Assembly: GCA_017439585.1 (NCBI GenBank)
Contig: JAFSIV010000012.1
Span: 1-64,000 of the forward strand
Reading direction: 5' to 3'
DNA length: 64,000 bases
From: Clostridia bacterium
GTDB taxonomy: Bacteria > Bacillota > Clostridia > Oscillospirales > Acutalibacteraceae
This document shows, piece by piece, positions 22,535 through 62,101 of this stretch; the stretch's first letter is position 1; each line of letters opens with the position of its first letter. A program made the position numbers and the translations under genes. The notes below the pieces were generated by a model. It was not told where the DNA came from. It was given only the letters and a program-made list of their open reading frames with translations, and ran no database searches.

Positions 22535-23785
22535 TTATTTCGGCATAAGCTCAGGGCAATATTTATAAAGCGGAGAAACATCATCCGTTTTATGAATATA
22601 TTTATAGAACTCTAAGGTTGCAGGCTTAGGACAGCACGGCTTTTCAGGGTCGCCAAATGAAGTGAAGAAGCCGAAGTTATCCTCGCTCGCGTCAACCGAA
22701 TAGCCTGAATAGTCGTTAAGCATATAGAACATAACTGCTTCTAAATAAGGCATTTTTTCATTATAAAGGTCTAGAAGCTTTACCATATTTTCACCGTTCA
22801 TAATTTCTCTAGCTTCGTTTCCGTTATCGGTGAAGCCACACTCGGTTATAATAGCAGGTTTACCCGCATCATTATGGCGCTCGCAAGCCTTATAAAAGCT
22901 ATCGCAATGCTCAAAATATTCTTCCAATGTTGTATCGTTCAAATACTTATGGAAATTAATAGAATCGAAATATTTATCGGGATTAGTCTCCGCAAAATCC
23001 TCACCGTAAGGGTGAGCACCCGATTCTATTGCTTCATAGATATAATCTAAAATCTCATGTCCTTCACCGTGGGTTGAGAAACCGGGTGTTGTAACAATAA
23101 TTTCCGGATTTACCGCTTTAACCTCTTTATATATGTAATACTGCAAATCAGATATCATATGAGCTTTATCCATTATGCTGTATACATATCCATCGTCTGC
23201 GCCCCATTGATGTCCCTGCTTTGTGAAGATATTAGCGCCGGGAAGCTCAGGCTCGTTCATAGACTCAACATGGGTGATTTCAGGAAATTCCTTAACAATC
23301 ATACCCCAAGCCTTTGCATAGAGCTTCACCCAACGGATATACATTTCCTTTTCAACCGCAGGGTCGGGAACAACACCCGAAGTGGTTACGGTATAACCGT
23401 AAGGATAAATCGGAGCATCACTTACCGCAACAAACTTCTTTATGCCTGCCGCGCTCATTTTTTCAATTACTTGGTGTATAAGCTTTTTTTGCCCCTCTTT
23501 GAAAACAGGGGTGTCTCCTTCTTCAACCTCAAACATTGAATCGAGCGGAGTGCTTAAACGGTAATACTCCATTCCTAAAACACCGGTCATATCTGCTATA
23601 TTATCCAAAGTTGAGCTCGGGTCCATAACGGGACGAAGTTCAAATACATGCGCATTAATTCCGTATTTCAAAGGGGTTTCTCTCTTAGTAATTGCACCGC
23701 TATCAGTTTTACCCGAGTTATTATCACAACCGGCAACACAAAAAACGAGCAAAATCACTAAAAAAACAGCAATCAGTTTTTTCAT
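22535..23785 (-). CDS. Lipoprotein glycoside hydrolase (clan GH-A, GH39/GH5-like)
   Basis: 416 residues with a lipoprotein signal peptide ending in the lipobox VAGC (Cys19-20 region). The rest is a TIM-barrel hydrolase with a candidate acid/base Glu in SMNEPELP and a candidate nucleophile Glu in ITECGFTD. It is clearly paralogous to the C-terminal domain of the 16411-22347 protein: both share the stretch Y-(E/K)-AIESG-(A/T)-HP, a similar DxVD-NFHxY line and the same spacing of catalytic residues. Its ATG overlaps the stop of the upstream 901-residue gene by 4 bp (ATGA), so it ends the ABC transporter operon. It probably cleaves glycan at the outer face of the membrane before uptake. The exact GH family is uncertain. 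Confidence 0.8.
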   Translation of the reverse strand: MKKLIAVFLVILLVFCVAGCDNNSGKTDSGAITKRETPLKYGINAHVFELRPVMDPSSTLDNIADMTGVLGMEYYRLSTPLDSMFEVEEGDTPVFKEGQKKLIHQVIEKMSAAGIKKFVAVSDAPIYPYGYTVTTSGVVPDPAVEKEMYIRWVKLYAKAWGMIVKEFPEITHVESMNEPELPGANIFTKQGHQWGADDGYVYSIMDKAHMISDLQYYIYKEVKAVNPEIIVTTPGFSTHGEGHEILDYIYEAIESGAHPYGEDFAETNPDKYFDSINFHKYLNDTTLEEYFEHCDSFYKACERHNDAGKPAIITECGFTDNGNEAREIMNGENMVKLLDLYNEKMPYLEAVMFYMLNDYSGYSVDASEDNFGFFTSFGDPEKPCCPKPATLEFYKYIHKTDDVSPLYKYCPELMPK

Positions 23786-26475
23786 TGCGCATTACCTCTT
23801 TTCTTCACAAATAGGGCGATAATAACACCTAAAAGCGCAAGAATAACAGCGCCCATTACTGAATATAAAACGATAAATAAGATTGGCATTCCGCCTTCCT
23901 TTTCGGAATTTGCCGAAACCTTATTTTTCTCTAGCTTCGAAACCCAGATATCAGTATCATTAGGGTCTTGCTCATAGCTTACAGCTTCTGCCTTACAGCT
24001 GTTATCAAGCGAATATACCGATATATTATCTATCAATGCATCCTCTGAAAGCCATTTTATAATGCCTTCGTTTACAGGGCTTGCAAATGTATATTCAACA
24101 ATGGGAGAAGCAAATTTATCATTTGGCTCATATACTCCCTTTGCCGCAAGCGACAAAGCATCGTACTGCAAAATAAGCTGCATCTGAGTGTTTTTATAAT
24201 CCGAAAGATTATATTTAGATACATCTAAAACGGTCTTTTTAGCACCGTCATTTATAGTTACTTTCTTTAAATCTTTTGAAAGAATAAGCGATTTATTATC
24301 CGCGAAGCTAACAACTAAATCTGCGTTTTGCTCTAAAATAGTGAAGTTTGCGATATAATATCTGTTCTTATCCTTGGTTGCAACGCTACCGCCTGAAAGC
24401 TTCATAGCCTTGTCTTCAACCTTGGCAGAACCGTTAATAACGAGCTTATCGGTTATTTTTTCGTTTTCAAAAGACTCTCTGAGGGCAATACTTGAATCCT
24501 CGGTTGCCTCAGGTGCAATATTTGTTAGCTTATAATTGAAAATATCAAAGGACAAGCCGCTAACACCGAAAATCGAAACATAACCCGCAGTATTAACATT
24601 AGGAATTACTGCTCGGCAGATACCAAGCTTAGAAATATCCTCGCTATCTTCCTTATAGTAAACATATACTGTTCGGTTCTTTGCAACCAACATAATGTTA
24701 TACTTTGTTTCTTGGTCTTTATAGAAATGATAGCCTTCAACCTTTCTGGTTTTAGCACCATCATCAAATGTGCATAAATTTGCAACCATTTGAGTATACG
24801 GAGTAGAATCCCAACCGTAATATTCGAATTTTATGCTTGTTGAGTTATCTGAAATAGAAGCAAAAGAATCTTTGCCGAAGTTAATACCGAACCACTGACT
24901 GTTTGCGCCCTTAGATACCATTTTTATATCAAACTGCAATATAAAATCGGTATACTGCTTCTTAGGGGCAAAAGCACTGTATGAGCCTGCATTTTCAAAA
25001 TAAAGCGAGGGCTCAGTGGTGAAGGCACCCTTTGGACGAAGCGAAACGCCCGGTCCTATATAATATGTACGGTCGCTAATGTAATACTCTTCAAAGCCGT
25101 CCTGAGTAAGCTTGATTCCGCCGAAATTATTGGATAAATCAGGCTCCGCGCAAGGCGCATAAGTATTTTTAATAACCTTAACTTCATTAAGCTTTACATC
25201 CGCCGCGCTCTTATCAGTGGAATAATTGCAAATTCCCCAGAAACCGTCATACTTTATATTATTAAAGGTAAATTTAACTCCGCCAACTGTGAAAATTATA
25301 GAATAATCACTATTAATCACCACTTCAAAGTCAACCGAAGTATCCTCTATATTAAGAACGCTAAGAGGAATTAAATTCTCTCCGTAATCGGATATTTTTC
25401 CGTTTTTAATTAAATTTACCGACGCAAATTTACTATCATAAGCGCTAACACCTAATATTGTGGCATTATCCAAAGTACCTGATTTTTTAGCACCAAGATA
25501 AAGACCAAAGGTGGAATTTTTACTGAGACTTGTTATCTCTGCCTCAAATGAAATCTCATAAGGCTTGCTTATTTTATCGCTGGAAACCAGCTCGCTCTTT
25601 GCAGTTATAATATCCCCCGCTTTTTTAAATTCAGGACCTGAATTACGGGAAATAAAGATTTCGTCTCTTGTAAATCTTGCCTCATTTATATGCCAGTTAC
25701 TGTCTCCTACCGCCTCATCACCGTAGGTAAGGCTACTATTTTCAAAATTATCAGAAAAAGCTAAATGAGTTGGACTATCATAAACCTTGAAATTGCGAAT
25801 ATCAAACTGCTCGTTCATACCGCCCCACATACAGAAGTATCCGTTAGTATGCTCCATACGAACGAGTGTGCCATAATCGGTTGTAACAATAGGTTCACCG
25901 TTTTCAAGTATTTCAAAGGTTACTTTATAATCGTTTCCAGAGACCTTTTCAAGTGTTACGGCAAAATCGGTTGTTTTACCGACTGTTAGCGCATTATTAA
26001 GAGGGGTGTTTCCAAGCTGAGTCCAACTTTCCATACCGCCCATTTCATAAAGCGCCGTAACTCCTTTTGATACACACAAGTTGAAATCATAATAAGATGC
26101 GGTTGTTTTTTCATTTTCGCCGCCGAAGCCGCAATAAATAAAACCGTCATTAGTGCCTAGCATATCAATCGAATAAGTAAACCTGTTATAGTTTTTAAGC
26201 TTATACGCGGTAAGCACTAATGCAGAGCCGTAATGATATGCTCCTTCAAAGTGCATACTGTAAGAATCGGTTGCAACTTTTACGCTATCACCAGTAAAAT
26301 TCGGTTCGAGTGAGCCTGAATAAAAATGTTCTTCCATAACGGTAGATTTGTTCTGACCGTCGGGCTCGCCCTTGATAACAACACCCTGCGCAAAAGCGGA
26401 TGCCGTTGCCGAAAATATAATTACAGTACTCAGCAAAGCAGCTAAAACCGCTCTTGATAGTCTGAGAATTTTCAT
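23782..26475 (-). CDS. Membrane-anchored multi-domain glycan-binding-like protein
   Basis: About 897 residues. A signal peptide (MKILRLSRAVLAALL to SAFAQG) precedes four consecutive beta-sandwich units that look like LamG/concanavalin or 3-keto-disaccharide-hydrolase (DUF1080)-type folds. These show recurring lines such as RFTYSIDMLG, YEISFEAEI and FILQFDIKM, each followed by a DIRNFKVYD-like strand. The C-terminus has one transmembrane helix and a KKRGNAQ tail. No catalytic motif is evident. It sits in the operon between an ABC permease and a GH lipoprotein, so I infer a surface receptor that presents glycan to the enzymes and the binding protein. The ATG at 26475 has AAGGAAAGGTGG 8 nt upstream; the earlier ATG at 26487 would abut that site. 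Confidence 0.7.
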   Translation of the reverse strand: MKILRLSRAVLAALLSTVIIFSATASAFAQGVVIKGEPDGQNKSTVMEEHFYSGSLEPNFTGDSVKVATDSYSMHFEGAYHYGSALVLTAYKLKNYNRFTYSIDMLGTNDGFIYCGFGGENEKTTASYYDFNLCVSKGVTALYEMGGMESWTQLGNTPLNNALTVGKTTDFAVTLEKVSGNDYKVTFEILENGEPIVTTDYGTLVRMEHTNGYFCMWGGMNEQFDIRNFKVYDSPTHLAFSDNFENSSLTYGDEAVGDSNWHINEARFTRDEIFISRNSGPEFKKAGDIITAKSELVSSDKISKPYEISFEAEITSLSKNSTFGLYLGAKKSGTLDNATILGVSAYDSKFASVNLIKNGKISDYGENLIPLSVLNIEDTSVDFEVVINSDYSIIFTVGGVKFTFNNIKYDGFWGICNYSTDKSAADVKLNEVKVIKNTYAPCAEPDLSNNFGGIKLTQDGFEEYYISDRTYYIGPGVSLRPKGAFTTEPSLYFENAGSYSAFAPKKQYTDFILQFDIKMVSKGANSQWFGINFGKDSFASISDNSTSIKFEYYGWDSTPYTQMVANLCTFDDGAKTRKVEGYHFYKDQETKYNIMLVAKNRTVYVYYKEDSEDISKLGICRAVIPNVNTAGYVSIFGVSGLSFDIFNYKLTNIAPEATEDSSIALRESFENEKITDKLVINGSAKVEDKAMKLSGGSVATKDKNRYYIANFTILEQNADLVVSFADNKSLILSKDLKKVTINDGAKKTVLDVSKYNLSDYKNTQMQLILQYDALSLAAKGVYEPNDKFASPIVEYTFASPVNEGIIKWLSEDALIDNISVYSLDNSCKAEAVSYEQDPNDTDIWVSKLEKNKVSANSEKEGGMPILFIVLYSVMGAVILALLGVIIALFVKKRGNAQ

Positions 26476-26493
26476 AATGTCATCCACCTTTCC

Positions 26494-27465
26494 TTAGAAA
26501 TCAACATCAGGGGTAATCTTATCGGTAATCTTCTTAACCACGATTATAAGAACCGATACTATTACGGTTAAAATGAAGCCTATCGTAGAAATTAAAGGCA
26601 TATCAGAGCTTTGAGCTTTCGGTGCCATAGTAAACATATACCAACCAACCGTATTATAAACGCTGCCCGGTCCCGTAGTGTTACCTGTAAGCAACATCGG
26701 TTGAATATAGAAAGCAGATACCGCCATAACCGAGTTGATTAAGAACACGCTTATAGTGGGCATTATTAGCGGAATATGAATCTGGAAAAGCTCGCGCCAG
26801 AAGCCGACACCGTCAAGCTTTGCCGACTCAATAACACTCTCAGGAATACGCGACATGGCAGATGCCATAAGTATAATGTTAATACCGGCACTCGCCCAAA
26901 CGCAGAATATTGAAATTAACCACCAAATTGTATTAATAACAGCAGGGTCATTAAGGGTTGTTTCCCATCCGTTATAATTAAAACCTAACATTCGCAAAAA
27001 CTCTGCCGCAGGACCTTGAAGCATACCGGGACTATATGTAAACATATAACGGTAGCAAAGTGTTTGAATAACGATAGATATCATTGTCGGAAGATAGAAA
27101 ATCACACGGAATACCTTTTCGCCGCGAATATGCTTTGAAAAGGCATAACCAATGATTACCGCCAGAATAAGACAGGCTATATTAATTGGAAGCGCCCTGA
27201 ATGCGTTAATAAACATATTCATGGTTTCGGGTCTCTCTTTAAATTGCCTGAACTGCTCAACAAAATTATCTATTCCCGCAAATTTATAGGTATTTGCGAA
27301 ATAATCCCAATCCATAAAGGCAAGTGAGATAGTTTCAACATTTATGTAAAGCCAAAACACCAAAAAATGAAGCAACGGGACAATTAGCAAGGATGCAATA
27401 AAAAGGTTGCGTTTCAGATTTTTTCTCGGCCTTTTCACTATTTGGTTTCTTTTAGAATTAACCAA
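26494..27465 (-). CDS. CUT1 sugar ABC transporter permease (MalF/UgpA-like)
   Basis: 323 residues, a basic N-terminus and six predicted membrane helices. The EAA loop reads ESAKLDGVGFWRELFQIHIP, the contact site for the ATPase. It forms one half of the inner-membrane channel for an oligosaccharide, the partner being the permease at 29134-29982. The start is TTG at 27465, supported by a GGAGG 9 nt upstream. No nucleotide-binding subunit is encoded nearby, as is common where a shared MsmX-type ATPase serves several CUT1 importers. It is followed 19 bp later by the membrane-anchored glycan-binding-like protein, in the same operon. Confidence 0.9.
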   Translation of the reverse strand: MVNSKRNQIVKRPRKNLKRNLFIASLLIVPLLHFLVFWLYINVETISLAFMDWDYFANTYKFAGIDNFVEQFRQFKERPETMNMFINAFRALPINIACLILAVIIGYAFSKHIRGEKVFRVIFYLPTMISIVIQTLCYRYMFTYSPGMLQGPAAEFLRMLGFNYNGWETTLNDPAVINTIWWLISIFCVWASAGINIILMASAMSRIPESVIESAKLDGVGFWRELFQIHIPLIMPTISVFLINSVMAVSAFYIQPMLLTGNTTGPGSVYNTVGWYMFTMAPKAQSSDMPLISTIGFILTVIVSVLIIVVKKITDKITPDVDF

Positions 27466-27505: not shown

Positions 27506-29104
27506 TTATTTTACTTCAGTCATACGGAACTTCTTAATATAATTATTAGTTGAAAGGTCAAAAGTTCTTCTAACTTCCTTCATAATCTCAGCACCGTCTG
27601 TTTTCTTCAACATATTCATAACAGTTGCAATGTTAACATCTGCGAAAACTATCGGGCTTTCATAAGTGTATATAAGCGAAACTGCAAAAGGACTTTCCTT
27701 ATAAGCTTTAAGCGGGAAATCGTAAATCTTTGTGCTATTGTAATACACATCGAAAACGCTCGCGTTGTATTTAGTTAAAGAATCATCCTTAATTTCTCTT
27801 GCATCATAATTGAAAGGACGGATACCGCCGCTTGAACGAACGGTAAATTTCTTCAACTGGTCTTCGTTGCAAAGGAATACCAAAAATTCTTTTGCCAAAT
27901 CCTTATGAGCTGCACCACTGGGTACGAACATAAAGTCATCATATGCGCAATATAGATACTTTTCGCTTTCATGTCCGTCAAGAGCGGGAATATTCATGAA
28001 ACGAATATCTGAATCCTGCTTTCCGTCAGAATCACTGTCAAGAACACCTGTAAGTCTAGCTTCAGACTCACCGAAAGAACTTGCAAATGCGATTACAGGT
28101 CTTTCCTCGTTACGCTCTGCGTATAATGCACGGGTAAGCTCCTGAGTTGAGATAGTGTTAACAGCAGAAAGGCTGTTTTTATAAGAACCGGATTTTGTAT
28201 CGATAACAAGCTTTTTGAAATTATCAAGCGAAGCGGCTATACCCTTTTGCTCAAAAACCTTGCTTGAAAAAGTCTGGTTAAGAGTGGTCTTTGAGGTGTT
28301 GCCAAAGTTCCAGAAATCATAGAAGCTTCCCTGACCTGCAACATTTGAATCATAAAGACCCTGATACTGAGCCCACCAGGTGAACATAAAGTAATAAACC
28401 TGCTCTAATGCTAATGCAGACCAACCAAACGGAACATATTTATGACCATCTTTGCTCTTATAAGCATTGATATCATCACAAAGTGCCAACCATTCGGTAA
28501 GATTTTTAGGAGGAGCAATCCATTTATTTGTGGACTTATCAACCGATTCGGCAGATACCGCAGCAGAAGATGTATGAGGAATTTTCTTTAATACATCATT
28601 GTTATATGCAAGAGACATAGGCATTGCGGTAAACGGAACAATCCAAGGATAAGAATCACCTGTTCCAACCTGTCTTTCAATATAACAGCGGCCAACTACC
28701 TCAGGGTCTATGTATTCCGAAATCTTAACATCGCCCTTTGAGGTTTTAACGGTGGAATCAAAAACGCTTTTAAGGTTTTCAACATAACCGTTTTGAACCC
28801 AGCTCTGCCAACGGTTTGAAGAGCCGATATACACGTCTGCAATATTTTTACCAGCAGTTAGATTGTTTTCTGCGCCACAGTCCATATCAGAAGAAGGAAC
28901 AACCTGAATCTTAACTCCCTTTTCTTCTTCAAATTCCTTAGCGGCTTCCTCAATCCAATCATCGCCGTAAGCACCTGAATAGTATTTAACAACTAAATCA
29001 TAATTCTTGCTATCGGCATCCGAACCGGATGAACCGCAAGCGGTCATACAAGCAAGAATAGCACCCACGAGTGCCACCGCCAAAAGTCTTCTAAAAATTT
29101 TCAT
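27506..29104 (-). CDS. Extracellular solute-binding lipoprotein (family 1, sugar ABC transporter)
   Basis: 532 residues. A lipoprotein signal peptide (MKIFRRLLAVALVG) with lipobox MTAC is followed by a GSSGSD linker and a family 1 solute-binding fold, with lines such as VVKYYSGAYGDDWIEEAAKEF and an AKEFLVFLCNEDQLKKF segment near the C-terminal lobe. At over 500 residues it is longer than the classical maltose-binding size, resembling binding proteins for larger or complex oligosaccharides. It lies between the two permease genes and is preceded by a GGAG site at the right distance. It captures the glycan released by the surface hydrolases and delivers it to the permeases. Ligand unknown. Confidence 0.9.
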   Translation of the reverse strand: MKIFRRLLAVALVGAILACMTACGSSGSDADSKNYDLVVKYYSGAYGDDWIEEAAKEFEEEKGVKIQVVPSSDMDCGAENNLTAGKNIADVYIGSSNRWQSWVQNGYVENLKSVFDSTVKTSKGDVKISEYIDPEVVGRCYIERQVGTGDSYPWIVPFTAMPMSLAYNNDVLKKIPHTSSAAVSAESVDKSTNKWIAPPKNLTEWLALCDDINAYKSKDGHKYVPFGWSALALEQVYYFMFTWWAQYQGLYDSNVAGQGSFYDFWNFGNTSKTTLNQTFSSKVFEQKGIAASLDNFKKLVIDTKSGSYKNSLSAVNTISTQELTRALYAERNEERPVIAFASSFGESEARLTGVLDSDSDGKQDSDIRFMNIPALDGHESEKYLYCAYDDFMFVPSGAAHKDLAKEFLVFLCNEDQLKKFTVRSSGGIRPFNYDAREIKDDSLTKYNASVFDVYYNSTKIYDFPLKAYKESPFAVSLIYTYESPIVFADVNIATVMNMLKKTDGAEIMKEVRRTFDLSTNNYIKKFRMTEVK

Positions 29105-29133: not shown

Positions 29134-29982
29134 TTATCCTTTAATACCGCCGCCCAAAGACACGGTCATAATTTTCTTTTGGAAAACAAAATATAAAATC
29201 AATGTGGGAATAAGCATCAAAACGATAGTTGCAAAGAGTTCGGGATAACTGTATCCTAAATCAATTTTATCGGATATCTCTTTAACACCAACGCCAAGTG
29301 TCGGGTGGGTTGGCAAGAACAGATAAGGTCCTGAGAAATCGTTCCAGGTTCCAATAAAGCCCATTACCCATTGCGCTGCAATAAGGTTTATTGCCTGAGG
29401 ACATAAAATCTGTATGAATGTTCGCCAATATCCCGCGCCGTCCATCATTGCTGCTTCGCTATATGTATGTGATATATTTTTAAATACTGAATAATACATC
29501 AAAAATCCGAAGCCCGAAACACCGCAAGACATTACTATAAGACCTAAATGCTTATCAAATAATCCTATATCGTTAAGCAGCTTATAAACATACGGTGTTG
29601 TACCTGCAACCGAAACAAACATTGGCATAAGGAAAATAAAATAGAAAACATTTTTTAATTTATAATCAAAGCTTGCAATCGCATGCCCCGCGCAAAGCGA
29701 AAAGAAGGTTGATACCGTTGGTATACAAAGCGAAAGGAAAAGGCTGTTTGCAAACATTTCCAAAATATTGTTCTCGCCGGTAAATAGCAGTTTATAATTT
29801 TCAAAAGTAAAGCTCGTGAATTTCCATTGGTCATAGAAGAATTCATTGTTATTGGGTTTGAACGAATTTATAAACATCCATATAAGCGGTAAAAGAAGTG
29901 TTGCCGCATAAATGCAAAATAAGACAAACAAAATGCCCATTATTATGCGGTTTTCTTTTTTTGCTTTCTTAATTTTCTTCAT
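29134..29982 (-). CDS. CUT1 sugar ABC transporter permease (MalG-like), first gene of operon
   Basis: About 282 residues with a highly basic start (MKKIKKAKKENR) and six predicted helices. The EAA loop reads SEAAMMDGAGYWRTFIQILCP, and the end, VSLGGGIKG, is typical of MalG/LacG-type permeases. I choose the ATG at 29982 over the TTG at 29991 because the GGGAGG site lies too close to the TTG. It is the first gene of the operon whose promoter carries the shared operator at 30034-30082, divergent from the AraC regulator. Translation probably proceeds to the binding lipoprotein 29 bp downstream. Confidence 0.9.
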   Translation of the reverse strand: MKKIKKAKKENRIIMGILFVLFCIYAATLLLPLIWMFINSFKPNNNEFFYDQWKFTSFTFENYKLLFTGENNILEMFANSLFLSLCIPTVSTFFSLCAGHAIASFDYKLKNVFYFIFLMPMFVSVAGTTPYVYKLLNDIGLFDKHLGLIVMSCGVSGFGFLMYYSVFKNISHTYSEAAMMDGAGYWRTFIQILCPQAINLIAAQWVMGFIGTWNDFSGPYLFLPTHPTLGVGVKEISDKIDLGYSYPELFATIVLMLIPTLILYFVFQKKIMTVSLGGGIKG

Positions 29983-30018
29983 TTTAGGCAAAATCCTCCC
30001 ATGATTTTTTAAAATTGT

Positions 30019-30082
30019 AACATACGGAAATTTTTTTGTATATCAAAAATTAAGCAAATCATACAAAAAATTAAACATTTTT
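30019..30082 (-). promoter_or_regulatory. Operator and promoter of the transporter operon (copy 1 of shared element)
   Basis: The plus strand holds TTTGTATA (30035-30042), a 17-bp spacer and CATACAAA (30060-30067), an inverted repeat. It lies within a 49-bp block (30034-30082) matching 40288-40336 at 42 of 49 positions. For the minus-strand operon, a -35-like TTGATA (30046-30041) overlaps one half site, and TATGTT (30024-30019) lies 16 bp on. This arrangement suits activation by a regulator bound at the -35 region. Confidence 0.7.
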
Positions 30083-30340: not shown

Positions 30341-30369
30341 TTGACATTATTAAAATACGAATATATAAT
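30341..30369 (+). promoter_or_regulatory. Consensus promoter of the AraC-family regulator
   Basis: Perfect TTGACA (30341-30346), a 17-bp spacer and perfect TATAAT (30364-30369), about 50 bp before the ATG. This implies constant, fairly strong expression of the regulator. Confidence 0.85.
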
Positions 30370-30420: not shown

Positions 30421-31335
30421 ATGCAGGACATATACGAAGAAAAAGGCGAAACTCGGCTTGAAGATTATGAAATTGTATATCAAATATGCGACCATCCGGT
30501 TTTAATGACTTCACCTCATTATCATAACGTTATTGAAATAATATATATTTTGGAGGGTGAGTTTCTTATAACCGTAAGCAATAAAAAATATACTCTTCGC
30601 CCCGGAGAAATGGTTTTAATCAATGCAAAGGAAGTTCATTCGGTTAATATATTGGATTACGGTATACATAGGTCCTTTGCAGTTAAATTCTTGCCCGAAA
30701 CAATTTGCTCCGATAGTCAATCACTTATGGAGCTTAAATATGTTATTCCTTATATTGTTTCGTTCTCTGATTTTAAAACTCACTATACAAGAGACGAGGT
30801 TGAAAATTCTAATATTAAAAATTGTATAGATAACATTATGAAAGAGGACCGCGAACGCGGATATGCATATAAATTTGCAACCAGAATATATATTTCGCAT
30901 TTGTTTTTGGATTTAATCCGCAAGGTTAATACAATTAATCCAAACGAAGAAGAAATAAAGGATAATGTAAAGAAAGAATTTACAAACATATTCCGTTTTA
31001 TTTCTAATCATTACACCGAAAAATTAACAGCAGTTCAAATTGCTAAAAGATTTGGTTTGAGGCAATCGGATTTTTCGGCTCATTTTAAAAAGATAACAGG
31101 TAAAAGCTTTAATGAATATTTGAATTATGTCAGAATTTGCAAAGCTAAAAGAATGCTTATAAGCTCCGAAAAAAACATTACCGAGATTGCTTTCTCGGTA
31201 GGTTTTACAAACACAAGCTACTTTATCAACTGCTTTAAAGCCCAAATGGGCATAACCCCTGCAAGCTTCAAGCAAATATACACCGACCCGCCCGCCAGCG
31301 TTTATTATCACTTAGAACAAAATATTGAAGAATAA
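30421..31335 (+). CDS. AraC-family transcriptional regulator with cupin sensor domain
   Basis: 304 residues. The N-terminal cupin-like sensor (about 20-110) shows SPHYHNVIEIIYILEG and YTLRPGEMVLINAKEVHSV. The C-terminal double helix-turn-helix (about 190-295) shows LTAVQIAKRFGLRQSDFSAHFKK and the signature ITEIAFSVGFTNTSYFINCFKAQMGITP. Such proteins usually activate sugar-use operons on binding an effector through the cupin. It is divergent from the transporter operon and close to the GH42 operon, and both of those promoters carry the same operator-like element. It therefore probably switches on uptake and digestion together. The start at 30421 follows GGGAGG. It is monocistronic with a terminator at 31359-31399. 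Confidence 0.9.
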   Translation: MQDIYEEKGETRLEDYEIVYQICDHPVLMTSPHYHNVIEIIYILEGEFLITVSNKKYTLRPGEMVLINAKEVHSVNILDYGIHRSFAVKFLPETICSDSQSLMELKYVIPYIVSFSDFKTHYTRDEVENSNIKNCIDNIMKEDRERGYAYKFATRIYISHLFLDLIRKVNTINPNEEEIKDNVKKEFTNIFRFISNHYTEKLTAVQIAKRFGLRQSDFSAHFKKITGKSFNEYLNYVRICKAKRMLISSEKNITEIAFSVGFTNTSYFINCFKAQMGITPASFKQIYTDPPASVYYHLEQNIEE

Positions 31336-31399: not shown

Positions 31400-32689
31400 T
31401 TATCTAAATAATATTTTTTGCTCTGCACTTAGGATTATTTCTTTCGGAACCCTATAATATTTAACTATCGGAGTTAATTTCATACCGTCAACCAAAACGG
31501 TTTCTTCGGCATAAGGCAAAAGCGATTCATCAGGCAAAGAATAAATTATATCTGAGTCCAGATAAATTCCGTTCTCGTTTTTCTCAACCTTACCAAAGAT
31601 TTCAGCATATAAAAGTGCTTTGTTTTCGTTTATATACCATAATCCTTCCGCCAAACGCATACTGCAACAAAACTCTGCTTCATAGGTCCTCGCTTTGAGA
31701 TACTCCCAAGGACTACCCTCTGTTACAAGGGTATCAGTACCTGCGCCGCCGTTATCTCTTTGCAAAGTAGCAAAGCCATTATGATAAATTCTTGCGGCAG
31801 TTTTTCGGTATGCTTCATTTTCAGTTTCTTTATATAACTCTAATGCGAGCATAAGCGAATCAACCACTGCGCAAGGCTCAGTCCAGGTATCAGGGCGATT
31901 CCACCAATTAAGATTTTGGTAGGTATATGTCATACCGCCGCCGTTTACATATAAATCATATATTTCTTTTGCACCATTTATATATTTTTCCTCTGCCGTA
32001 ACAGAATACATACGCATCATTCCGCGGGCGGCAGTTAAGGTGCAGTGTGTTTGCACACGAAGCTTCACTTTATCAATAGATAGATAAACCTCTATCATTT
32101 CATCAAGCAATTCTTTTACAGCCTCGTTTTTTGTGATTTTATACACATGGGAAAGCCCATCAACACTCATAAAAGCGCAGCCAATATCACTGGATAGAAG
32201 CCAGTTATTGCAGTAACCGATTTCATTTCCGCTAACACCGCCTTCGTCTTTTTCGGTACGGTCTATTGGATAAGTGGCGTATAGACCTTTTGTTCTCATA
32301 AAAAGGTTTTCGGTTATACTTTTTATAACCTCTAAAACAAATTTATCCCCAAATTGCTCGTAGTATTCGCAAAGTCCTCTAAGCAACCAAGAATGTCCCG
32401 AAAGCTGTTGTTCTAAGATAACATCAGAACGGATTGTACCCAAATATCCTTTTTCGTTAAGCTTAGAGGGAAGCTTTTCAAGCATTTCGGTCATACAAGG
32501 TATTTTTTCGCCGCTTATTTTATAATGCGAAACAAATGCGAGTAATGCTCTGCCCTCTTTGTCAGCAGGCCAATCATAAGTCTCAGGTGCAAATACCTCA
32601 TTTATCTGATAATAAGAAGATTCTGCAAGTCTTTTAAAATTAAGAGCAATTCGGGTGCTTAATTCTTTTTCATTTATATGTTTTATCAT
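31400..32689 (-). CDS. Putative (alpha/alpha)6-barrel glycosidase, GH127-like
   Basis: 429 residues, cytoplasmic, helical throughout. It shows a GYLGTIR line, the GHSWLLRGLCEYYEQF helix, QTHCTLTAARGMMRMY and a YEAEFCCSMRLAEGLWYIN block. The EAEFCC pattern with neighbouring cysteines recalls the zinc/cysteine active site of GH127 (beta-L-arabinofuranosidase, DUF1680), but I am not certain of the family and no substrate can be claimed. It is the last of five genes transcribed from the GH42 promoter (gap 76 bp to the preceding gene), so it probably removes a specific sugar from the same imported glycan. An alternative is a related six-hairpin hydrolase or epimerase fold. Confidence 0.55.
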   Translation of the reverse strand: MIKHINEKELSTRIALNFKRLAESSYYQINEVFAPETYDWPADKEGRALLAFVSHYKISGEKIPCMTEMLEKLPSKLNEKGYLGTIRSDVILEQQLSGHSWLLRGLCEYYEQFGDKFVLEVIKSITENLFMRTKGLYATYPIDRTEKDEGGVSGNEIGYCNNWLLSSDIGCAFMSVDGLSHVYKITKNEAVKELLDEMIEVYLSIDKVKLRVQTHCTLTAARGMMRMYSVTAEEKYINGAKEIYDLYVNGGGMTYTYQNLNWWNRPDTWTEPCAVVDSLMLALELYKETENEAYRKTAARIYHNGFATLQRDNGGAGTDTLVTEGSPWEYLKARTYEAEFCCSMRLAEGLWYINENKALLYAEIFGKVEKNENGIYLDSDIIYSLPDESLLPYAEETVLVDGMKLTPIVKYYRVPKEIILSAEQKILFR

Positions 32690-32765: not shown

Positions 32766-34523
32766 TCAAGCTTTTATCTCTATATCTCTATATTCACCGT
32801 TAATAAAGATGTTTTTTAGTGATACACCACCCAGAATAAAAGGAACATTTTCTCTATAAGAAATATTGTTTCCATCAAAAACAATATTCAAAAGCCCGTC
32901 GGTAATAACTCTGCAATATAGTGCACTTTCTGCACTGAGGTGCCTCATATTACCCTCTGGATATGCTTCAACCGGATATGGAACTCTCTCTCCAAGCAAT
33001 CTTTTTTCCGAATATTTTTTAAGCATTGAAAAAGCCTTTTCAGCTTTTCCTGAACGGAATAACGCTGCTAAAAAATAAAGAGCACTTCTATCCCACATAG
33101 TTTTTTCGCCCTCAGTAGTTCTGCAACTATAATCATTCCAAAGAGTATCCTCTATTGAGGCAAGAGTATCTTCCGCTCGGTCAAAAACACCCATATAAAT
33201 CGGAAGGCAGTTCCAAGCCCTGATATCATTACAACCCTTATGATAAGCATAAGTATTATAACCTTTAACTTCTGCTGCGAAATGTTCTTCAAACGCTTTA
33301 TAAATATGTTCTCTCAAATCTGTTGCTTTACGGCATAGCTCTTCTTTTCCGTATTTCTTCCACAAAATTGAAACAAGTTCAAGACCTCCAAAAGCTAGTG
33401 AGGTGGTTGAGAGGTTGACACCTGAGGATATTCTTCCTTCTAACTCATCCGAATCAGAATATACCGCACCATCATCCATTGTTTTGAGTTTGATGTATTC
33501 AACACACCATTCAAGTGCTTTTTCCTGTCCTGCGTCCGGTGCTTTGCCTGTCGTTAACAGATACCTTGAAAGTCCAAAAAGATACATAGCAGTATCGCCT
33601 CTGTCACCTGCTGCGGTCCAATAATCAAGTCCTTCCGCTATTACACTGCTTGGAATACAACGATATTCATCGTTCATATAAGGCTCATACCACCTGAATG
33701 CATTTTCGCTAGCCTCCATCGCTTTTTTATCACCTGTAAAGGCAAACCAAGGTGCCGCATATTCAAGCTGATCATTACACCATACTGCCGCATAATAGGA
33801 ATATCCGCCGGGGCAGTGAACCAGACCTTTTTTTGTCCGAAAAATGCTTTCTCCTGCACGAATCTTTGCAAAAGCAAATTCTGTATCTATAACATCGTCA
33901 CCCGTAGTCAGGTCGCATTGGCTAATTAGCTCCTCAACCCTTGCCACACGCTTTTCGAGCGCATCGGCTTCAAATGGCGGGCTTTGGTTTGCAAAATATG
34001 CTCTGTAAGTGAAAATCACACGAAATGCACTGCCACTTTTCACTACACTCGGCTTCTTATCAGCAACGCGCTCAACATAGATATATCCTTCACAGCCTAA
34101 TCTTGTTTCAAGACGCTTTATTTTTTCATAAGAGAGTGTAATATCACTCGTTTTTGCTGTTATTTCAATATCCTCATAAAAACAGGAGAGGGTTGTAGAA
34201 GGATAAAAAGACCTTTTAATTATTACCTCTTCAGTATGTGAATAAAAAGTCAATATTCCACTTATCTGTGCCTTATCAAATGTTTCAACACCCAAAAAGT
34301 CAGGTAAAGTTATTCCCCGTATACAGTAACTTCCGTGGGTATTGTTCGGCTGTATTCTGAAATTTGGAAACACGATATCTCTTGTAAGAATTAATTTGCC
34401 GCCCTGCACACCGTAATTAACAATACCGGACACTCGTTCACCGCTCATTTCCAAAAACTCATTATGTCCTTCAAGAGTTTTTGTTTCGGTCATTCTTTTA
34501 TTCTCTACAATATACCATCTCAT
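32766..34523 (-). CDS. Six-hairpin glycosidase-like protein
   Basis: 585 residues without a signal peptide. A beta-rich N-terminal domain (about 1-190) is followed by an (alpha/alpha)6-type helical barrel. Recognisable lines are VHCPGGYSYYAAVWCNDQLEYAAPWFAFTGD, PSSVIAEGLDYWTAAGDRGDTAMYLFGLSRYL and TMWDRSALYFLAALFRSG, with acidic residues placed like those of GH15/GH63/GH78-type glycosidases. I cannot name the family with confidence. The start, ATG at 34523, follows AAGGATTG. It is the fourth gene of the GH42 operon, 40 bp after the GH38 gene, implying a cytoplasmic role in trimming the same substrate. Confidence 0.6.
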   Translation of the reverse strand: MRWYIVENKRMTETKTLEGHNEFLEMSGERVSGIVNYGVQGGKLILTRDIVFPNFRIQPNNTHGSYCIRGITLPDFLGVETFDKAQISGILTFYSHTEEVIIKRSFYPSTTLSCFYEDIEITAKTSDITLSYEKIKRLETRLGCEGYIYVERVADKKPSVVKSGSAFRVIFTYRAYFANQSPPFEADALEKRVARVEELISQCDLTTGDDVIDTEFAFAKIRAGESIFRTKKGLVHCPGGYSYYAAVWCNDQLEYAAPWFAFTGDKKAMEASENAFRWYEPYMNDEYRCIPSSVIAEGLDYWTAAGDRGDTAMYLFGLSRYLLTTGKAPDAGQEKALEWCVEYIKLKTMDDGAVYSDSDELEGRISSGVNLSTTSLAFGGLELVSILWKKYGKEELCRKATDLREHIYKAFEEHFAAEVKGYNTYAYHKGCNDIRAWNCLPIYMGVFDRAEDTLASIEDTLWNDYSCRTTEGEKTMWDRSALYFLAALFRSGKAEKAFSMLKKYSEKRLLGERVPYPVEAYPEGNMRHLSAESALYCRVITDGLLNIVFDGNNISYRENVPFILGGVSLKNIFINGEYRDIEIKA

Positions 34524-34563: not shown

Positions 34564-36990
34564 CTATTGTTCAATAATTAGAATTTCCTCAACATTGTCA
34601 TCTTTGGTTAATTTAATTGTCTTAACTTCTTGTGCAGTAAAATTCAGCTCAAAACTCTTATTTATCGCAGTAAATTTCACGGTAACAGTTGTAGATATAC
34701 CGGCGGTTTCCGCAAATCTTATAATTAAACCGTCATTATCTTCGCTGTTTTTAAGGGCAGAAATGCTAATGTTTTTCTTGTCTACTTCCAAAGCGGAATA
34801 CTCTTGCGGTAATATACCGTCGTGGTGGGTTTCTTGCACCAGAACAGGAGGCATATTAAGCACTTTTCCGCAGTTTGCAATATCTGCCGTTCTATTTTGG
34901 GTATGGGGGAAAAGTATAAAGTTAAACTCATGTTCACCTTTATCTATAAATTCCATTTCCGAATCCCTTGTGTTTTGAGCGTAATGGTCAAGATAAGCAC
35001 ACGAACGCGCAACAATAACTCTTAAATCGTTATCGGTAGCCGAGTGGCTATATCTTCCGTCGTTTATAAGACCTAATCCAAAGCCTGTATTGCTATCAAC
35101 CATATCTGCCCATTCGTGAGCAACATCCTCTTCCCCATTCGGAGCTTTTTCAATAAATCCATAGGGCATAGAATATACCGCTTTCGGTGACTCAACATTT
35201 ACAGGGAACGAGAATTTTATAAGCTTATATTCCTCGTCAACATCAAGCACACAGCGAATATGAAGTCTTGCATCGTTTTTATATAGAGTATAATACTTTT
35301 TAAGAACCGAATTGCCGTTTTTAGTAACCGATTTTATAGTGGCTCTTATAGGTCCGTTTTCTATAAGACTTAAATCTCCCTCTCCGAAAGCACCTATATC
35401 GTCATTAAGAGTATTAATTAAGTGCGACCAGGTATCGTGCTTAGAATCATCGCAAACGATAGCCTTGCCTAATTCACCCTTTGCAAATTCTAAGTTTTCA
35501 GCCTTTAATACATAAGAGGTTACCGCACCGCTTTCTTTATCAATAACAATTCTTACAAGACTGTTTTCAAGGGTGTTTTCGGTAGCCTTTAAATCGGTTG
35601 GTATTTCTGACTTTATAGAATTTTCCGTTTTTTTATAAACATAGTAAACTCGGTAGCCCATTGGAGGTAATTCTACCTCGAAAAGACATTTAGTAAAGTT
35701 TACACCGTCAGTATAAGGTGCTCTTACCATTTGGAAAGGCACTTCGTTTCCGTTATGGTCAACCACCTTTGTAACACTGTATGCGCCAAAGCTTACACTG
35801 GTTTTAACACTAAACGGATGCGGATTAAAAACAACCATCGGCGAGCCTTCGCCCTCTCTGTACCACAATCTGTCTCGCATTTCAGAAAAATCGGTATCGA
35901 GAAAATCAGTAGTTTTAATTTTGCCTGCAATTCTTTGAAGCGCAAAGTTTTCAAGCTCGTGCGCTTTTTGACGGGCATAGCCGAACGCATTATAGGCGTC
36001 CGTATAAGCTTCTTTAATGCAGCAACCCGCTAAAACATCGTGGAACTGATTAAACATAACCCTTTGCCATGCTTTTTCAAATTCTAAGTTATGAAAATCA
36101 CCGCCTACAATAAGACCTGCCAATGTATCATAGATTTCGGCGCTAACAAGCTCACATTCGCTGCGACGATTTTCAAACTTAACCCTGCTGTTTGCGCTAT
36201 AACAACCCGAAGCATGATGCTTTAAATCACCTGTTACGGTAGGCATTTCTATACCGCCGATATTTTCAAAATACTCATTTGGAGTGGCATACATAAAACC
36301 GTCTTTTTTAACCCATTCCTCAGCCTGCTTTAAATGCTCCTTGGAGGGGCCGCCGCCATGGTTACCAATACCGTAAAAAATCATCTGGTCCTGAGTTTTT
36401 TCAAGATAAAGGTTTACTCTCTCCTCGGATAAATCACCGTTATATAATTCAAGTATTCTGAAAGCTGTAACCTCGCTACCGTCAGTGCCTTGCCATTTAT
36501 GTAAATTTTCCTCAGGAAACAGGGGATTTTCGGTTTCTCTGTTGGGACGCATATAAACATAACTGTCTATACCGGATTTTTTAAACAACTGCGGAAGTGC
36601 GGCGCTATGACCAAAAGAGTCAACATTATAGCCTATATCGGCAATTTTTCCGAAATTTTCTTTCAAAAACTTTTGTGAATAAAGAAAATGTCTGCAAAAA
36701 GACTCGCCCGACGGAATGTTGCAATCAGGCTGCACCCACATACCGCCAACCAATCCCCAGCGGCCTTCTTTTACTCGCTGTTCAATTTCTTTGAACATAT
36801 CGGGGTCAATTTTCTTTATCCAAAAATAGTAACCTGCGCAAGCGCTGGTGAATTTATAATTTTCATTCTCTTTCATTCTATCCAGAGCAGAACGAAAGGT
36901 CGACCTTATCAGCGATAACCCTTCGGATATTCGCCACTGCCAAACAGGATCTAAATGAGCGTTGCCAATAAGGTAATTCTTTTCCGCCAT
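34564..36990 (-). CDS. GH38 alpha-mannosidase (short form)
   Basis: 808 residues. The zinc motif IGNAHLDPVWQW is right at the N-terminus (residues 8-18). The predicted nucleophile Asp124 lies in YNVDSFGHSA, and FHDVLAGCCIKEAYTDAYNAFG follows in the middle. Unlike the 5954-9067 enzyme it lacks the N-terminal beta domain, so the two GH38 enzymes are distant paralogues that may prefer different mannosyl linkages. There is no signal peptide, so it is cytoplasmic. The start has a GGAGATT site. It is preceded by the beta-lactamase-fold gene (43-bp gap) and followed by the six-hairpin glycosidase. Confidence 0.92.
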   Translation of the reverse strand: MAEKNYLIGNAHLDPVWQWRISEGLSLIRSTFRSALDRMKENENYKFTSACAGYYFWIKKIDPDMFKEIEQRVKEGRWGLVGGMWVQPDCNIPSGESFCRHFLYSQKFLKENFGKIADIGYNVDSFGHSAALPQLFKKSGIDSYVYMRPNRETENPLFPEENLHKWQGTDGSEVTAFRILELYNGDLSEERVNLYLEKTQDQMIFYGIGNHGGGPSKEHLKQAEEWVKKDGFMYATPNEYFENIGGIEMPTVTGDLKHHASGCYSANSRVKFENRRSECELVSAEIYDTLAGLIVGGDFHNLEFEKAWQRVMFNQFHDVLAGCCIKEAYTDAYNAFGYARQKAHELENFALQRIAGKIKTTDFLDTDFSEMRDRLWYREGEGSPMVVFNPHPFSVKTSVSFGAYSVTKVVDHNGNEVPFQMVRAPYTDGVNFTKCLFEVELPPMGYRVYYVYKKTENSIKSEIPTDLKATENTLENSLVRIVIDKESGAVTSYVLKAENLEFAKGELGKAIVCDDSKHDTWSHLINTLNDDIGAFGEGDLSLIENGPIRATIKSVTKNGNSVLKKYYTLYKNDARLHIRCVLDVDEEYKLIKFSFPVNVESPKAVYSMPYGFIEKAPNGEEDVAHEWADMVDSNTGFGLGLINDGRYSHSATDNDLRVIVARSCAYLDHYAQNTRDSEMEFIDKGEHEFNFILFPHTQNRTADIANCGKVLNMPPVLVQETHHDGILPQEYSALEVDKKNISISALKNSEDNDGLIIRFAETAGISTTVTVKFTAINKSFELNFTAQEVKTIKLTKDDNVEEILIIEQ

Positions 36991-37033: not shown

Positions 37034-38170
37034 TTATATTAAAGATTCACTAACATCTCTTTCGAGTTGACAAGCAGATTTATTTCCTGCTCCGCCATCA
37101 TAACAAGAGTTTTTCATCATAACAACTGAAATGCGATTTTTTCTGTCAACCCAAAAATGAGTTCCGTAAGCACCGCTCCAACCAAAACAACCGATATCCA
37201 ATCCATGAGGATAATCTTCTGAGGTTACAACTCTGACTCCCAGTCCCCATTTTTCGTATCCCAAAGACTTATCGCATTGAGGTGTGGACATCAGATTTAC
37301 CGCATTTTCAGATAATATTTGTTTACCGTCTTTCGACTTTCCGCCAAAACACAGCATATCAGCAAATTTTATATAATCATCCGCCGTGGTTACAAGTCCA
37401 GCTCCTGCAGGCATTCTTTTTGCTAAAAACCCGTCAAACACGCAACCGGTCGGTCTTATGGAATTTTCGCTATCCCCGTTTTCGGTACGGTTATGCATTG
37501 CAACCACTTTTTCCCATTGTTCGTTGGTGGGACAAAAGGTTGTATTTATCATTCCAAGCGGCTCAAAAATATTCTCTTTAAGATACCTGTCAAAAGGAAT
37601 ACCCGATACTTTTTGAACAATTCCCGCCGCTATATCAAACGCTTCTGTTGCACTATATCGTTCTGCTGAATTTGGCTCAAACAATATAGGTTTTGTGAAA
37701 ATATCCTCTATTGCTTGATCCAAGGTCATTTCATTATTTGTGTTTGGGGAAATTGTAGTTATCGGCTCACTGCCGATTCCGCTTGTGTGGGATAATAGAT
37801 TTCTAACTGTAATCTCATTTTCAAGCGGCACACTTGACACGATTTTCTCATTTTTGATTATGGCGACCTTTAAATCTTTCGCCTTAGGATAAAATTTTGA
37901 AATTTTATCATCTAAATCAATGAGTCCCTTATCAACAAGTTGCAAAACTGCGGTTGTGGTAATCGGTTTAGTCATTGACGCCGCACGATAAATCAAGCCT
38001 TTTTTTGCAACAAGACCGCCAACTGAACTTGTTCCGAAAACGCCTGAATAAACACATTCACCTTCCTGATGAACAATAACTTCTTTGCAACCTATTTTGT
38101 TTTCATGTAATTCTTGATTTGTGTGTTTTGATATAAGAAATTCAAGTTTTTGGCTTTCTATTTTTCTCAC
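37034..38170 (-). CDS. Serine beta-lactamase-fold hydrolase (class C/esterase type)
   Basis: About 378 residues from a GTG start. The catalytic SxxK is AASMTK (Ser65, Lys68 in this frame), with LLSHTSGIG and an ERYSATEAFD tyrosine motif following. No signal peptide is present, so a periplasm-type penicillin target is unlikely, and an esterase or deacylase acting on imported, acetylated or acylated sugar fits the context. The upstream ATG at 38230 would overlap the GH42 gene by 29 bp and has no good ribosome site, whereas GTG at 38170 has an AGAGAAG site 6 nt upstream. It is the second gene of the operon. A role in antibiotic resistance is not indicated. Confidence 0.8.
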   Translation of the reverse strand: MRKIESQKLEFLISKHTNQELHENKIGCKEVIVHQEGECVYSGVFGTSSVGGLVAKKGLIYRAASMTKPITTTAVLQLVDKGLIDLDDKISKFYPKAKDLKVAIIKNEKIVSSVPLENEITVRNLLSHTSGIGSEPITTISPNTNNEMTLDQAIEDIFTKPILFEPNSAERYSATEAFDIAAGIVQKVSGIPFDRYLKENIFEPLGMINTTFCPTNEQWEKVVAMHNRTENGDSENSIRPTGCVFDGFLAKRMPAGAGLVTTADDYIKFADMLCFGGKSKDGKQILSENAVNLMSTPQCDKSLGYEKWGLGVRVVTSEDYPHGLDIGCFGWSGAYGTHFWVDRKNRISVVMMKNSCYDGGAGNKSACQLERDVSESLI

Positions 38171-38201
38171 TGTTATCTTCTCTTTTCCAAAATTGATATC
38201 A

Positions 38202-40187
38202 TTAAATCTTTTCAAGCACCATAACTTCATAAGAATTCACAGTAATATCACCCTCAAAAGTTCTCCCAGAAATAATATCTCTGTATTTTATATTATTATG
38301 ATATGTTCCGCCTTTTCCGCAAACATCCACGATGATTACACCCTCAGTTTCTTCTCCTTTGCGGGCAGATACAATAACCGAATTGCCTTCTGTCTTATTG
38401 CAAGGAATATTGGCTTTCTTGCAAACAGCAGCAATCAGTTTGTTCATATCTTTTTCATCAGGCATAGTACCGAGAACATAAACAAAGCCTTTTCCAACGG
38501 GGAAACACTGCAAAACCGAGCCGCCGATAATTTCTTTATGTGAGTCTATTACGGTTACAATATCGGCATTTTTATCAGGCTCAAATATTTCGTAATAAGC
38601 GTTACCGCTAAAAGCTTCTCCGTCCTTCCATTTTGACTTAACGCTTTTTTCTCTGTCTGGAAACCAGTATTTAAATACAGCAGGGGTTAACTCCTCTAAC
38701 ATTCCGTGAAGTCGGTCGGTAAATCTTGTTCCGTCCTTTGTGCGTATATCGGTCATAGGACCGGTAATCCAAATGCCGCCGTTTTCAACCCAATCTGCTA
38801 TTCTTTCCCTGAGGTTTCCTTGGTCTAAGGTTATCATTAAGGGAGAAAATACGATATCGTATTTTTCAAGGCAGGCTTCCTCGTCAATAACATCAGGACG
38901 AAGACCGCTGTTTAAAAGCGGTTTATAAAAATAATTTTTCAAGGCTGTATCATAATGAAAATCGCCAACAACCTGTTGGGTTTCAAATATATTATAGCAA
39001 AGCGAGGAGTAATGTAAAGCAATATTTGTATTAACCTTTGTATTATTAATAAAATCGGCGCATTTCTTAAAATCGCGAGCAACCGCTTTTACTTCCTCGG
39101 TGCTATACATAGGTCTACCGCTCGAATCTAAAACAGAGCCGTGAACTAATTCTTGTCCCGCCCAATGAGTTCGCCAAAGCCAATACATAGTAGCTTCTCC
39201 GCCCAAAGCTAACGGCAACCAAGAGTTAACATAGCAAAAACCATCAGGCTTGATACTGCCGTAAGTTCCGGTTGAACCCGAAAAACAGGTTGCGGTTTCG
39301 GTATTCCAAAAAGGACGGTCCTTCATAGTTCTCAGATAATCAAACCACAATAAGCATTCCCACAGGTTTTCAGGGATATTATAGTGATTAAACTGAACCA
39401 CATCAAGCGGCTCATGTAATTTGCGATAATTCATACCGTTAAAGGGGATTTGGTCGGTGCCTATTGGGGCATTTGTATATTTTTTAAGAATTTCGGCCTG
39501 CATTGCCACAAAATCAATATTTGCCTGCCCTGCGCTGATTAAAAACTCCTGCTTTAAATGGGGATTTTCCCAAGTATCTCTCGGAAACGGTACTTCATCA
39601 AAGCTATCATACCATTGACTAAACAAATTAAGGTTTAACCTTTTGTTCATTTCCTCAATAGTGCCAAATTTGTTCTTTAAATGCTCATGGTATTTTTTTA
39701 AGCAGTTTTTGCAGAAACAACCCTCATTGTTTTGCAAATAGATTTCGTTATCAATTTGCCAACCGATTATAGCCTCTTCTTTTCCAAATTCCGCTGCCAT
39801 TTTTTCAACAATTCTAGCAGAATATTTTAAATACTCGGGGTGATTTGAACAGGCGTGTCTCCTTCCGCTATGCTGCATAACTCTACCGTTTTTATATTCC
39901 ACCAGCATATCGGGATATTTTTTAGTAAGCCATACAGGAGGCACGGCGGTAGGCGTTCCCATAACAATAGCGATACCGGCACTCTTTAATTTATCAACAA
40001 CATTATGTAGCCATGAAAAATCAAACTCACTGTCTCTCGGCTCCATTTTGCGCCATGCAAATTCGCCTATTCGGGCAACATTTATCCCAATCGACAGCAT
40101 TTTTTCAATATCTTTATCTATTTCTGATACATCCCAATCCTCAGGATAGTATGCTACTCCTAAAAAGGGCGGTTTAATTGCAATCAT
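38202..40187 (-). CDS. GH42 beta-galactosidase
   Basis: 661 residues, typical for GH42. The barrel opens with LGVAYYPEDW. The acid/base Glu148 lies in GWQIDNEIY, and the predicted nucleophile Glu lies near 297 in FWNTETATC. The zinc-cluster cysteines Cys113 and the CFCKNC group (157, 159, 162) match the family. The trimerisation-type Rossmann domain and C-terminal beta domain are present. There is no signal peptide, so it works on imported galactosides. It is the first gene of the five-gene operon and its promoter carries the shared operator at 40288-40336. The ribosome site is AGGAGATAT. Together with two alpha-mannosidases it suggests a galactose- and mannose-containing glycan. Confidence 0.95.
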   Translation of the reverse strand: MIAIKPPFLGVAYYPEDWDVSEIDKDIEKMLSIGINVARIGEFAWRKMEPRDSEFDFSWLHNVVDKLKSAGIAIVMGTPTAVPPVWLTKKYPDMLVEYKNGRVMQHSGRRHACSNHPEYLKYSARIVEKMAAEFGKEEAIIGWQIDNEIYLQNNEGCFCKNCLKKYHEHLKNKFGTIEEMNKRLNLNLFSQWYDSFDEVPFPRDTWENPHLKQEFLISAGQANIDFVAMQAEILKKYTNAPIGTDQIPFNGMNYRKLHEPLDVVQFNHYNIPENLWECLLWFDYLRTMKDRPFWNTETATCFSGSTGTYGSIKPDGFCYVNSWLPLALGGEATMYWLWRTHWAGQELVHGSVLDSSGRPMYSTEEVKAVARDFKKCADFINNTKVNTNIALHYSSLCYNIFETQQVVGDFHYDTALKNYFYKPLLNSGLRPDVIDEEACLEKYDIVFSPLMITLDQGNLRERIADWVENGGIWITGPMTDIRTKDGTRFTDRLHGMLEELTPAVFKYWFPDREKSVKSKWKDGEAFSGNAYYEIFEPDKNADIVTVIDSHKEIIGGSVLQCFPVGKGFVYVLGTMPDEKDMNKLIAAVCKKANIPCNKTEGNSVIVSARKGEETEGVIIVDVCGKGGTYHNNIKYRDIISGRTFEGDITVNSYEVMVLEKI

Positions 40188-40272
40188 AATATATCTCCTA
40201 ATCTATCTAAATCAAACCGTGCTAATTATATATTAATAATTAAAAAGCCATATAATTATTCAATATAATTTT

Positions 40273-40395: not shown

Positions 40396-40428
40396 ATACA
40401 CCCTGCCAAATAATTTAGCAGGGTGTAT
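40396..40428 (-). terminator. Terminator after the giant adhesin gene
   Basis: ATACACCCTGC and GCAGGGTGTAT form an 11-bp stem with an 11-nt loop, followed on the minus strand by a T-rich tail (AATATATTTTTG). It lies 17 bp past the stop at 40445 and separates the adhesin from the GH42 promoter. Confidence 0.85.
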
Positions 40429-62088: not shown

Positions 62089-62101
62089 TATAAAATTTAT
62101 T

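Follow-up and report, generated by a model that had tools for sequence, protein, structure and literature searches.

At the araBAD promoter of Escherichia coli, AraC binds two direct half-sites (I1 and I2) about 21 bp apart, the proximal of which lies at the -35 element. Periodicities of 21 and 32 bp have been sought for AraC-type sites and, in the excerpts available of a study of Caldicellulosiruptor bescii, each of the four single-component AraC regulators is predicted to act at tandem repeats that precede promoters and is read as an activator (PMC8579813). A 21-bp periodicity is also described, in the available portion of another report, for novel AraC-type rhamnose regulators (Bacillales, Bacteroides and Enterococcus regulons), and the same portion gives E. 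coli RhaR as a protein of inverted 17-bp half-sites separated by a 17-bp spacer (PMC3870299). The class II sites of MarA, SoxS and RamA overlap the -35 hexamer, and those hexamers match the consensus at three positions at most, as stated in an extract of PMC10268841. For an AraC protein of Clostridium thermocellum, the authors report that they failed to confirm binding (PMC8457756).

The locus presented here lies in the window, the whole 64,000-nucleotide stretch of a Clostridia bacterium that was analysed (contig JAFSIV010000012.1, positions 1 to 64,000). Two closely matching elements precede a sugar transporter unit and a glycosidase unit on either side of an AraC-family gene, and the proposed regulon is ordinary biology of an already known kind. 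No AraC regulon with matching gene content was found in literature listings (PMC only).

The araC cluster and its two matching sites

The araC gene is carried on the plus strand between two minus-strand units, the transporter unit (29991-22535) and the GH42 unit (40187-31400), and gene spacing suggests that each unit is co-transcribed (Table 1). With a C-terminal HTH and a ligand-type N-terminal domain, the araC product is a member of the AraC/XylS family, and its domain scores all exceed the cut-offs (HTH_18 78.5 bits, HTH_AraC 54.8, Cupin_2 41.3, AraC_binding 32.9).

As to substrates, GH38 and a faint GH76-like match hint at alpha-mannosides and GH42 hints at galactosides; the faint match is that of the 429-aa protein to a GH76 alpha-1,6-mannanase (PDB, E ~0.001), next to sub-threshold Pfam matches to GH88 and GH127. 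The cluster groups a sugar transporter and GH38/GH42 enzymes with two proteins, of 901 and 585 aa, of no known family: no Pfam family was found for either at gathering level, and PDB sequence searches were fruitless. At the end of the consensus of the 901-aa protein, a hydrophobic stretch precedes basic residues, a pattern suggestive of a membrane anchor. Nearby, 16411-22422 encodes a 2003-aa protein that combines a metallophosphoesterase domain with a type I dockerin; the C-terminal stretch of this protein (~1600-1987) corresponds at ~30% to the position that GH5 occupies in relatives. The surface protein encoded at 40445-47236 (2263 aa) has a VWA domain, and eight FctA (Spy0128-like) isopeptide stretches were matched in it.

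Table 1. Positions of genes, predicted promoters and candidate operator elements in the window
Feature	Position	Strand	Remarks
45-bp operator, ABC-transporter unit	30035..30079	-	15-site ungapped alignment; PWM 63.3; contains the reported palindrome
Promoter-distal half-site TGTTTAATTTTTTGTATG	30060..30077	-	Direct-repeat reading; 14/18 vs proximal half-site, 21-bp spacing
Promoter-proximal half-site TGCTTAATTTTTGATATA	30039..30056	-	Direct-repeat reading
8-bp arm	30060..30067	.	Inverted-repeat reading; 7/8 vs other arm of first operator
Other 8-bp arm	30035..30042	.	Inverted-repeat reading
Weak -35 hexamer TATACA, first operator	30037..30042	-	Overlaps proximal half-site and inverted arm
-10 TACAAT with TG extension	30014..30019	-	17-bp spacer; promoter scan, predicted
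45-bp operator, GH42 unit	40289..40333	-	Alignment; PWM 61.2
Promoter-distal half-site TGTTTAATTATTTGTATA, second operator	40314..40331	-	13/18 vs proximal half-site
Promoter-proximal half-site TGATTGAATTTTGGTATA, second operator	40293..40310	-	
Weak -35 hexamer TATACA, second operator	40291..40296	-	Overlaps proximal half-site
-10 TAAAAT with TG extension	40268..40273	-	17-bp spacer; promoter scan, predicted
araC promoter TTGACA-17-TATAAT	30341..30369	+	12/12 consensus; predicted
AraC-family regulator, 304 aa, proposed activator	30421..31335	+	Cupin-type N-terminal, AraC-type HTH C-terminal domain
ABC permease (BPD_transp_1)	29134..29991	-	Likely ATG start 29982; mechanical TTG start 29991
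ABC sugar-binding protein (SBP_bac_1)	27506..29104	-	
ABC permease (BPD_transp_1)	26494..27465	-	
901-aa protein, transporter unit	23782..26487	-	No Pfam or NCBIfam family
GH5-like (Pfam Cellulase) protein	22535..23785	-	
GH42 beta-galactosidase-family glycosidase	38202..40187	-	First gene of second unit
Beta-lactamase-family serine hydrolase (esterase-like)	37034..38230	-	
GH38 alpha-mannosidase	34564..36990	-	
585-aa protein	32766..34523	-	No Pfam or NCBIfam family
429-aa protein	31400..32689	-	Last gene of second unit; sub-threshold glycosidase matches
Terminator-like hairpin	40396..40428	-	Between upstream surface-protein gene and GH42 unit

A first-pass annotation of the window had pointed to a palindromic operator shared by two distant glycan operons. 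The likeness stands at the coordinates it gave: 30034-30082 and 40288-40336 are identical at 42 of 49 positions; when the window's intergenic segments were dinucleotide-shuffled 60 times, the top 49-mer pair reached 38. The two sites are 10 kb apart but not at distant operons, as the units flank araC and form one local cluster. Elsewhere in the window, a separate 255-bp direct repeat, 97% identical (61842-62096 and 63322-63576), flanks a minus-strand ORF (62102-62854) and supplies the top real 49-mer pair (49/49).

The common element TTTGTATA-N17-YATACAAA was likewise correctly described, and searching the genome assembly (1,486,823 bases, 87% complete, so that more sites could be missing) returned exact matches only at 30035-30067 and 40289-40321. 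Allowing up to two mismatches gave 7 forward and 9 reverse matches; the additional ones are near noise, since a control motif read backwards gave 4 and 6. A longer 40-mer lacking the CAAA end, searched with up to three mismatches, again found just the two operators in the genome. Sites with more than three mismatches were sought in the window and the fetched loci by means of a position weight matrix (PWM, threshold 11). In the window its sole match besides the first operator was the second, and across the window and 12 loci it added to the 15 training sites (scores 38.4-67.1) one diverged site, scoring 21.8, upstream of GH42 in one relative (G078).

Both sites also stand at the same distance from a -35/-10 pair of their minus-strand unit, as had been claimed (TATACA-17-TACAAT and TATACA-17-TAAAAT, or TATACA-17-TGnTAnAAT for both). 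Promoter-like sites numbered 11 near the first operator (9.2 expected) and 11 near the second (3.6 expected); in DNA this AT-rich the promoter scan alone says little, and the weight rests on conservation. An RNA element was ruled out: each site precedes the -10 that belongs to it, and the one Rfam match in the window at gathering thresholds was a tRNA.

Distribution of site and regulator among relatives

In the genus set of 70 genomes, an AraC match (E <= 1e-50) was present in 8 and the 33-bp motif with up to three mismatches in 7, and the backwards control scored 0 in every genome. Six genomes had both, two had AraC only, one had the motif only and 61 had neither (Fisher p = 1.5e-6, a value that ignores kinship, and sites from related genomes are non-independent). 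In a family sample the extended motif was found in 2/398 genomes (G000 and G065), both with AraC, and in an order sample, scored for at most five candidates per genome, AraC was found in 2/394, the same two; these two samples were drawn evenly from the larger groups and overlap the genus set.

As for the genomes with AraC only, the contig of one (G014) stops within araC, and the other (G085), whose AraC is 68% identical, shows at the expected place a site that has diverged by five mismatches; on its 13.5-kb contig neither the GH42 gene nor a second site was found. The genome with the motif only (G024) has a GH42 site with 0 motif mismatches and no AraC match was found in it. The arrangement there resembles a deletion that removed araC together with the ABC and 901-aa genes, and an assembly error is also possible; in the same genome the 429-aa glycosidase-like gene is fused in frame to a GH5 tail (L027:4935-5987) and the GH42 operator is kept. 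With this one exception the sites are limited to the cluster and to AraC-bearing genomes, and a wide spread of the motif in unrelated DNA was seen neither in the genome nor in the searches of relatives.

In six relatives (G028, G026, G034, G065, G078 and L041) araC is flanked by the two target units, and the last of these, a goat rumen MAG (RGIG3470), has both sites. Four further loci (L039, L040, L042 and L043) seem to be duplicates of the G034, G026, G028 and G014 records, and water-buffalo reticulum, caecum and rumen are the named origins of three of these. Gene content varies: among the loci searched, the beta-lactamase-family gene was matched in G034 and G065 only and the 585-aa gene in G026, G034, G078 and G014 only. 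In G028 the 429-aa gene lies across the GH42 operator in opposite orientation (L048:10938-12366), which places the operator between divergent genes.

The genome encodes 11 proteins with an AraC-type HTH (HTH_18), and another of these or an unrelated factor might bind the sites and leave the neighbouring AraC incidental, for which the site without a detected AraC in G024 could also speak. That is very unlikely given that site and AraC occur together in six genomes, set against 61 with neither, and given the place of araC between the target units in six relatives. The link between the operators and the AraC at 30421 is hence well supported by these comparisons, and so far the earlier claim that this protein governs both units held; binding and activation are what I infer from it.

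An identity of 42/49 might also point to recent copying of a promoter segment between the operons with no common regulator. The high identity, however, stops outside both stretches, and comparison of 12 of the 15 aligned sites, from the six genomes with both, gave a mean of 38.2/45 for same-genome pairs (6 pairs) and 38.3 for cross pairs (30 pairs). With no excess likeness inside genomes, recent duplication was rejected as extremely improbable.

Direct and inverted symmetry of the candidate operator

An ungapped alignment was made of fifteen related sites, 8 of which precede the ABC-permease gene and 7 GH42, taken from nine genomes or loci; it yielded the consensus (operon strand) AATGTTTAAtTt-TTTGTATaaTTTG.tT.atTTTTGgTATACAAA. 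The conserved block exceeds the palindrome, as it takes in AATGTTTAAtT upstream and conserved bases within the "N17", and by this alignment it is both larger and asymmetric. The 45 columns contain 49.8 bits, divided into 19.4 (39%) for the 8-bp arms, 12.8 for the 12 bases upstream (-12..-1) and 17.7 for the 17 inner ones (8..24). The palindrome of the first-pass annotation is real in the consensus and leaves out the conserved upstream and inner bases; aligning relatives can show a palindrome seen in one genome to be just one portion of a larger conserved operator.

Direct and inverted symmetries are both present in the operator. The direct repeat at 21 bp has a mean match of 13.33/18 (11-16 of 18 per aligned site), a value reached by 1/20,000 column permutations for a placement that was picked after viewing the alignment; with every placement searched at 18 bp, the direct repeat was equalled by 0/400 nulls on the 45 columns and 0/200 with flanks. 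On the 45 columns only, the inverted repeat was the best 8-bp match (0/400 nulls) and unremarkable from 10 bp up, and the 21-bp direct repeat was best at 12-18 bp (2, 6, 0 and 0 of 400 nulls at 12, 14, 16 and 18 bp). Adding the flanks favoured the inverted repeat at 8, 10 and 12 bp, with 8.2, 8.0 and 8.7 (0, 1 and 0 of 200 nulls; the 12-bp match pairs columns -5..6 with 26..37) versus 5.0, 5.3 and 7.1 for the direct repeat (20, 9 and 0 of 200). At 14 bp the inverted match scored 6.4, at a different place, versus 6.0 for the direct one, and the direct repeat led at 16 and 18 bp, with 7.2 and 8.3 (1 and 0 of 200 nulls) versus top inverted matches of 2.5 and 1.7 located elsewhere.

An AraC dimer might accordingly be imagined to sit head-to-head, as RhaR does, on an inverted repeat TTTGTATA-N17-TATACAAA or an extended version of it. 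The outer arms match at 6-8 of 8 positions in 15/15 aligned sites, the inverted match with flanks outscores the direct one up to 12 bp, and right-arm bases 31-32, accounted for by neither the direct repeat nor the -35, were counted against the direct reading. On the other hand, the arms carry only 39% of the information, the inner conserved bases are asymmetric (0-3 of 8), the best inverted match at 16-18 bp lies elsewhere and scores lower, and the diverged G078 site, which was outside the training set, has 3/8 in the arms and 11/18 in the direct repeat (one site). The probable -35, TATACA, also makes up most of the right arm. Overall, the head-to-head reading is fairly unlikely, and direct repeats 21 bp apart appear to be the best description of the element over 16-18 bp; because they cover more of it, the symmetry read by the protein leans direct.

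Both symmetries could also be in use, with TTTGTATA serving as part of the 21-bp direct repeat and as an inverted arm, so that AraC would bind as a head-to-tail dimer with ligand in an activating state and as a head-to-head dimer without ligand that covers the -35. This would make an on/off switch on the same DNA without DNA looping, and I consider it unlikely.

The proposed regulon and its place among known systems

The reading preferred here is that both sites are operators of the AraC encoded at 30421-31335, which probably activates both units from direct repeats in the class II manner. Two half-sites of roughly TG-nTTnATTTTTnGTATA would lie head-to-tail, 21 bp or two helical turns apart, and the proximal one would overlap a poor -35, which a good -10 follows. 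A near-consensus promoter would keep AraC at a steady level, and a sugar bound in the cupin domain would place the AraC dimer on both half-sites, where, as a class II activator, it would bring in RNA polymerase and turn on in concert the genes for uptake (ABC) and those for digestion (GH42, GH38 and partners). A regulator made at a steady level, together with a good -10 and a poor -35 beneath the activator site, fits class II activation; binding, the reading of the direct repeat by a dimer, activation rather than repression, and a ligand are all suggested by sequence comparison.

Two features of a class II site are present: a pair of direct half-sites spaced by about 21 bp, and overlap of the proximal one with the -35 of a predicted promoter that has a good -10. 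In the aligned sites TATACA is found in 15/15 and TAnAAT at 17 bp in 12/15. Counted against the class II reading were the shift of the -10 to 18 bp in 3/15 sites (TACAAT twice, TAAAGT once), the TG ahead of the -10 in 11/15, and the -35 itself, which matches 4/6 consensus positions as compared with three or fewer in the class II promoters of MarA, SoxS and RamA given in the extract of PMC10268841. Upstream of araC, 8/8 aligned regions have a promoter-like pair, TTGAC(A/T)-17-TATAAT in 7/8 and TTGCCT-17-TATAAT in L041, the AraC of which was excluded from the AraC alignment. From the ABC operator to the araC promoter (30085-30340 in the window), G000, G028 and G026 carry additional DNA that G034, G065, G078 and L041 lack.

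The comparison of 70 genus genomes supports the idea that transport and digestion form one regulon, centred on AraC, in which a glycosidase unit is joined to a unit for a sugar ABC transporter. The result provides an uncharacterised glycan cluster, found in Clostridia of gut and rumen, with a likely regulator, a predicted binding motif and a putative two-unit regulon. What emerges is a well-supported if ordinary candidate AraC regulon, with an operator larger than the palindrome first reported.

The operator resembles araBAD I1-I2 in that its direct half-sites are spaced by about 21 bp and the proximal one is at the -35. No sign of a third, looping half-site as in E. coli AraC was seen in the window (PWM, threshold 11), and, unlike E. 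coli AraC, the regulator is not an AraC orthologue by the NCBIfam cut-off (residues 45-287, 64.7 bits versus 208). As with RhaR at rhaSR, inverted arms are readable, here significantly so to 12 bp with flanks, whereas in contrast to RhaR as described in the available portion of PMC3870299 the inverted symmetry appears to be gone by 16-18 bp and the inner bases are conserved and asymmetric. There is likeness in kind to the C. bescii and rhamnose regulons as they appear in the excerpts (PMC8579813, PMC3870299), which share with this locus a local AraC-family gene, a sugar ABC operon, glycosidases, and direct repeats with the site at or upstream of the promoter; the cluster differs from them, to the extent of those excerpts, in its own half-site sequence and gene set, in having GH42 and GH38 in one unit, and in the inverted repeat superposed on the direct one.
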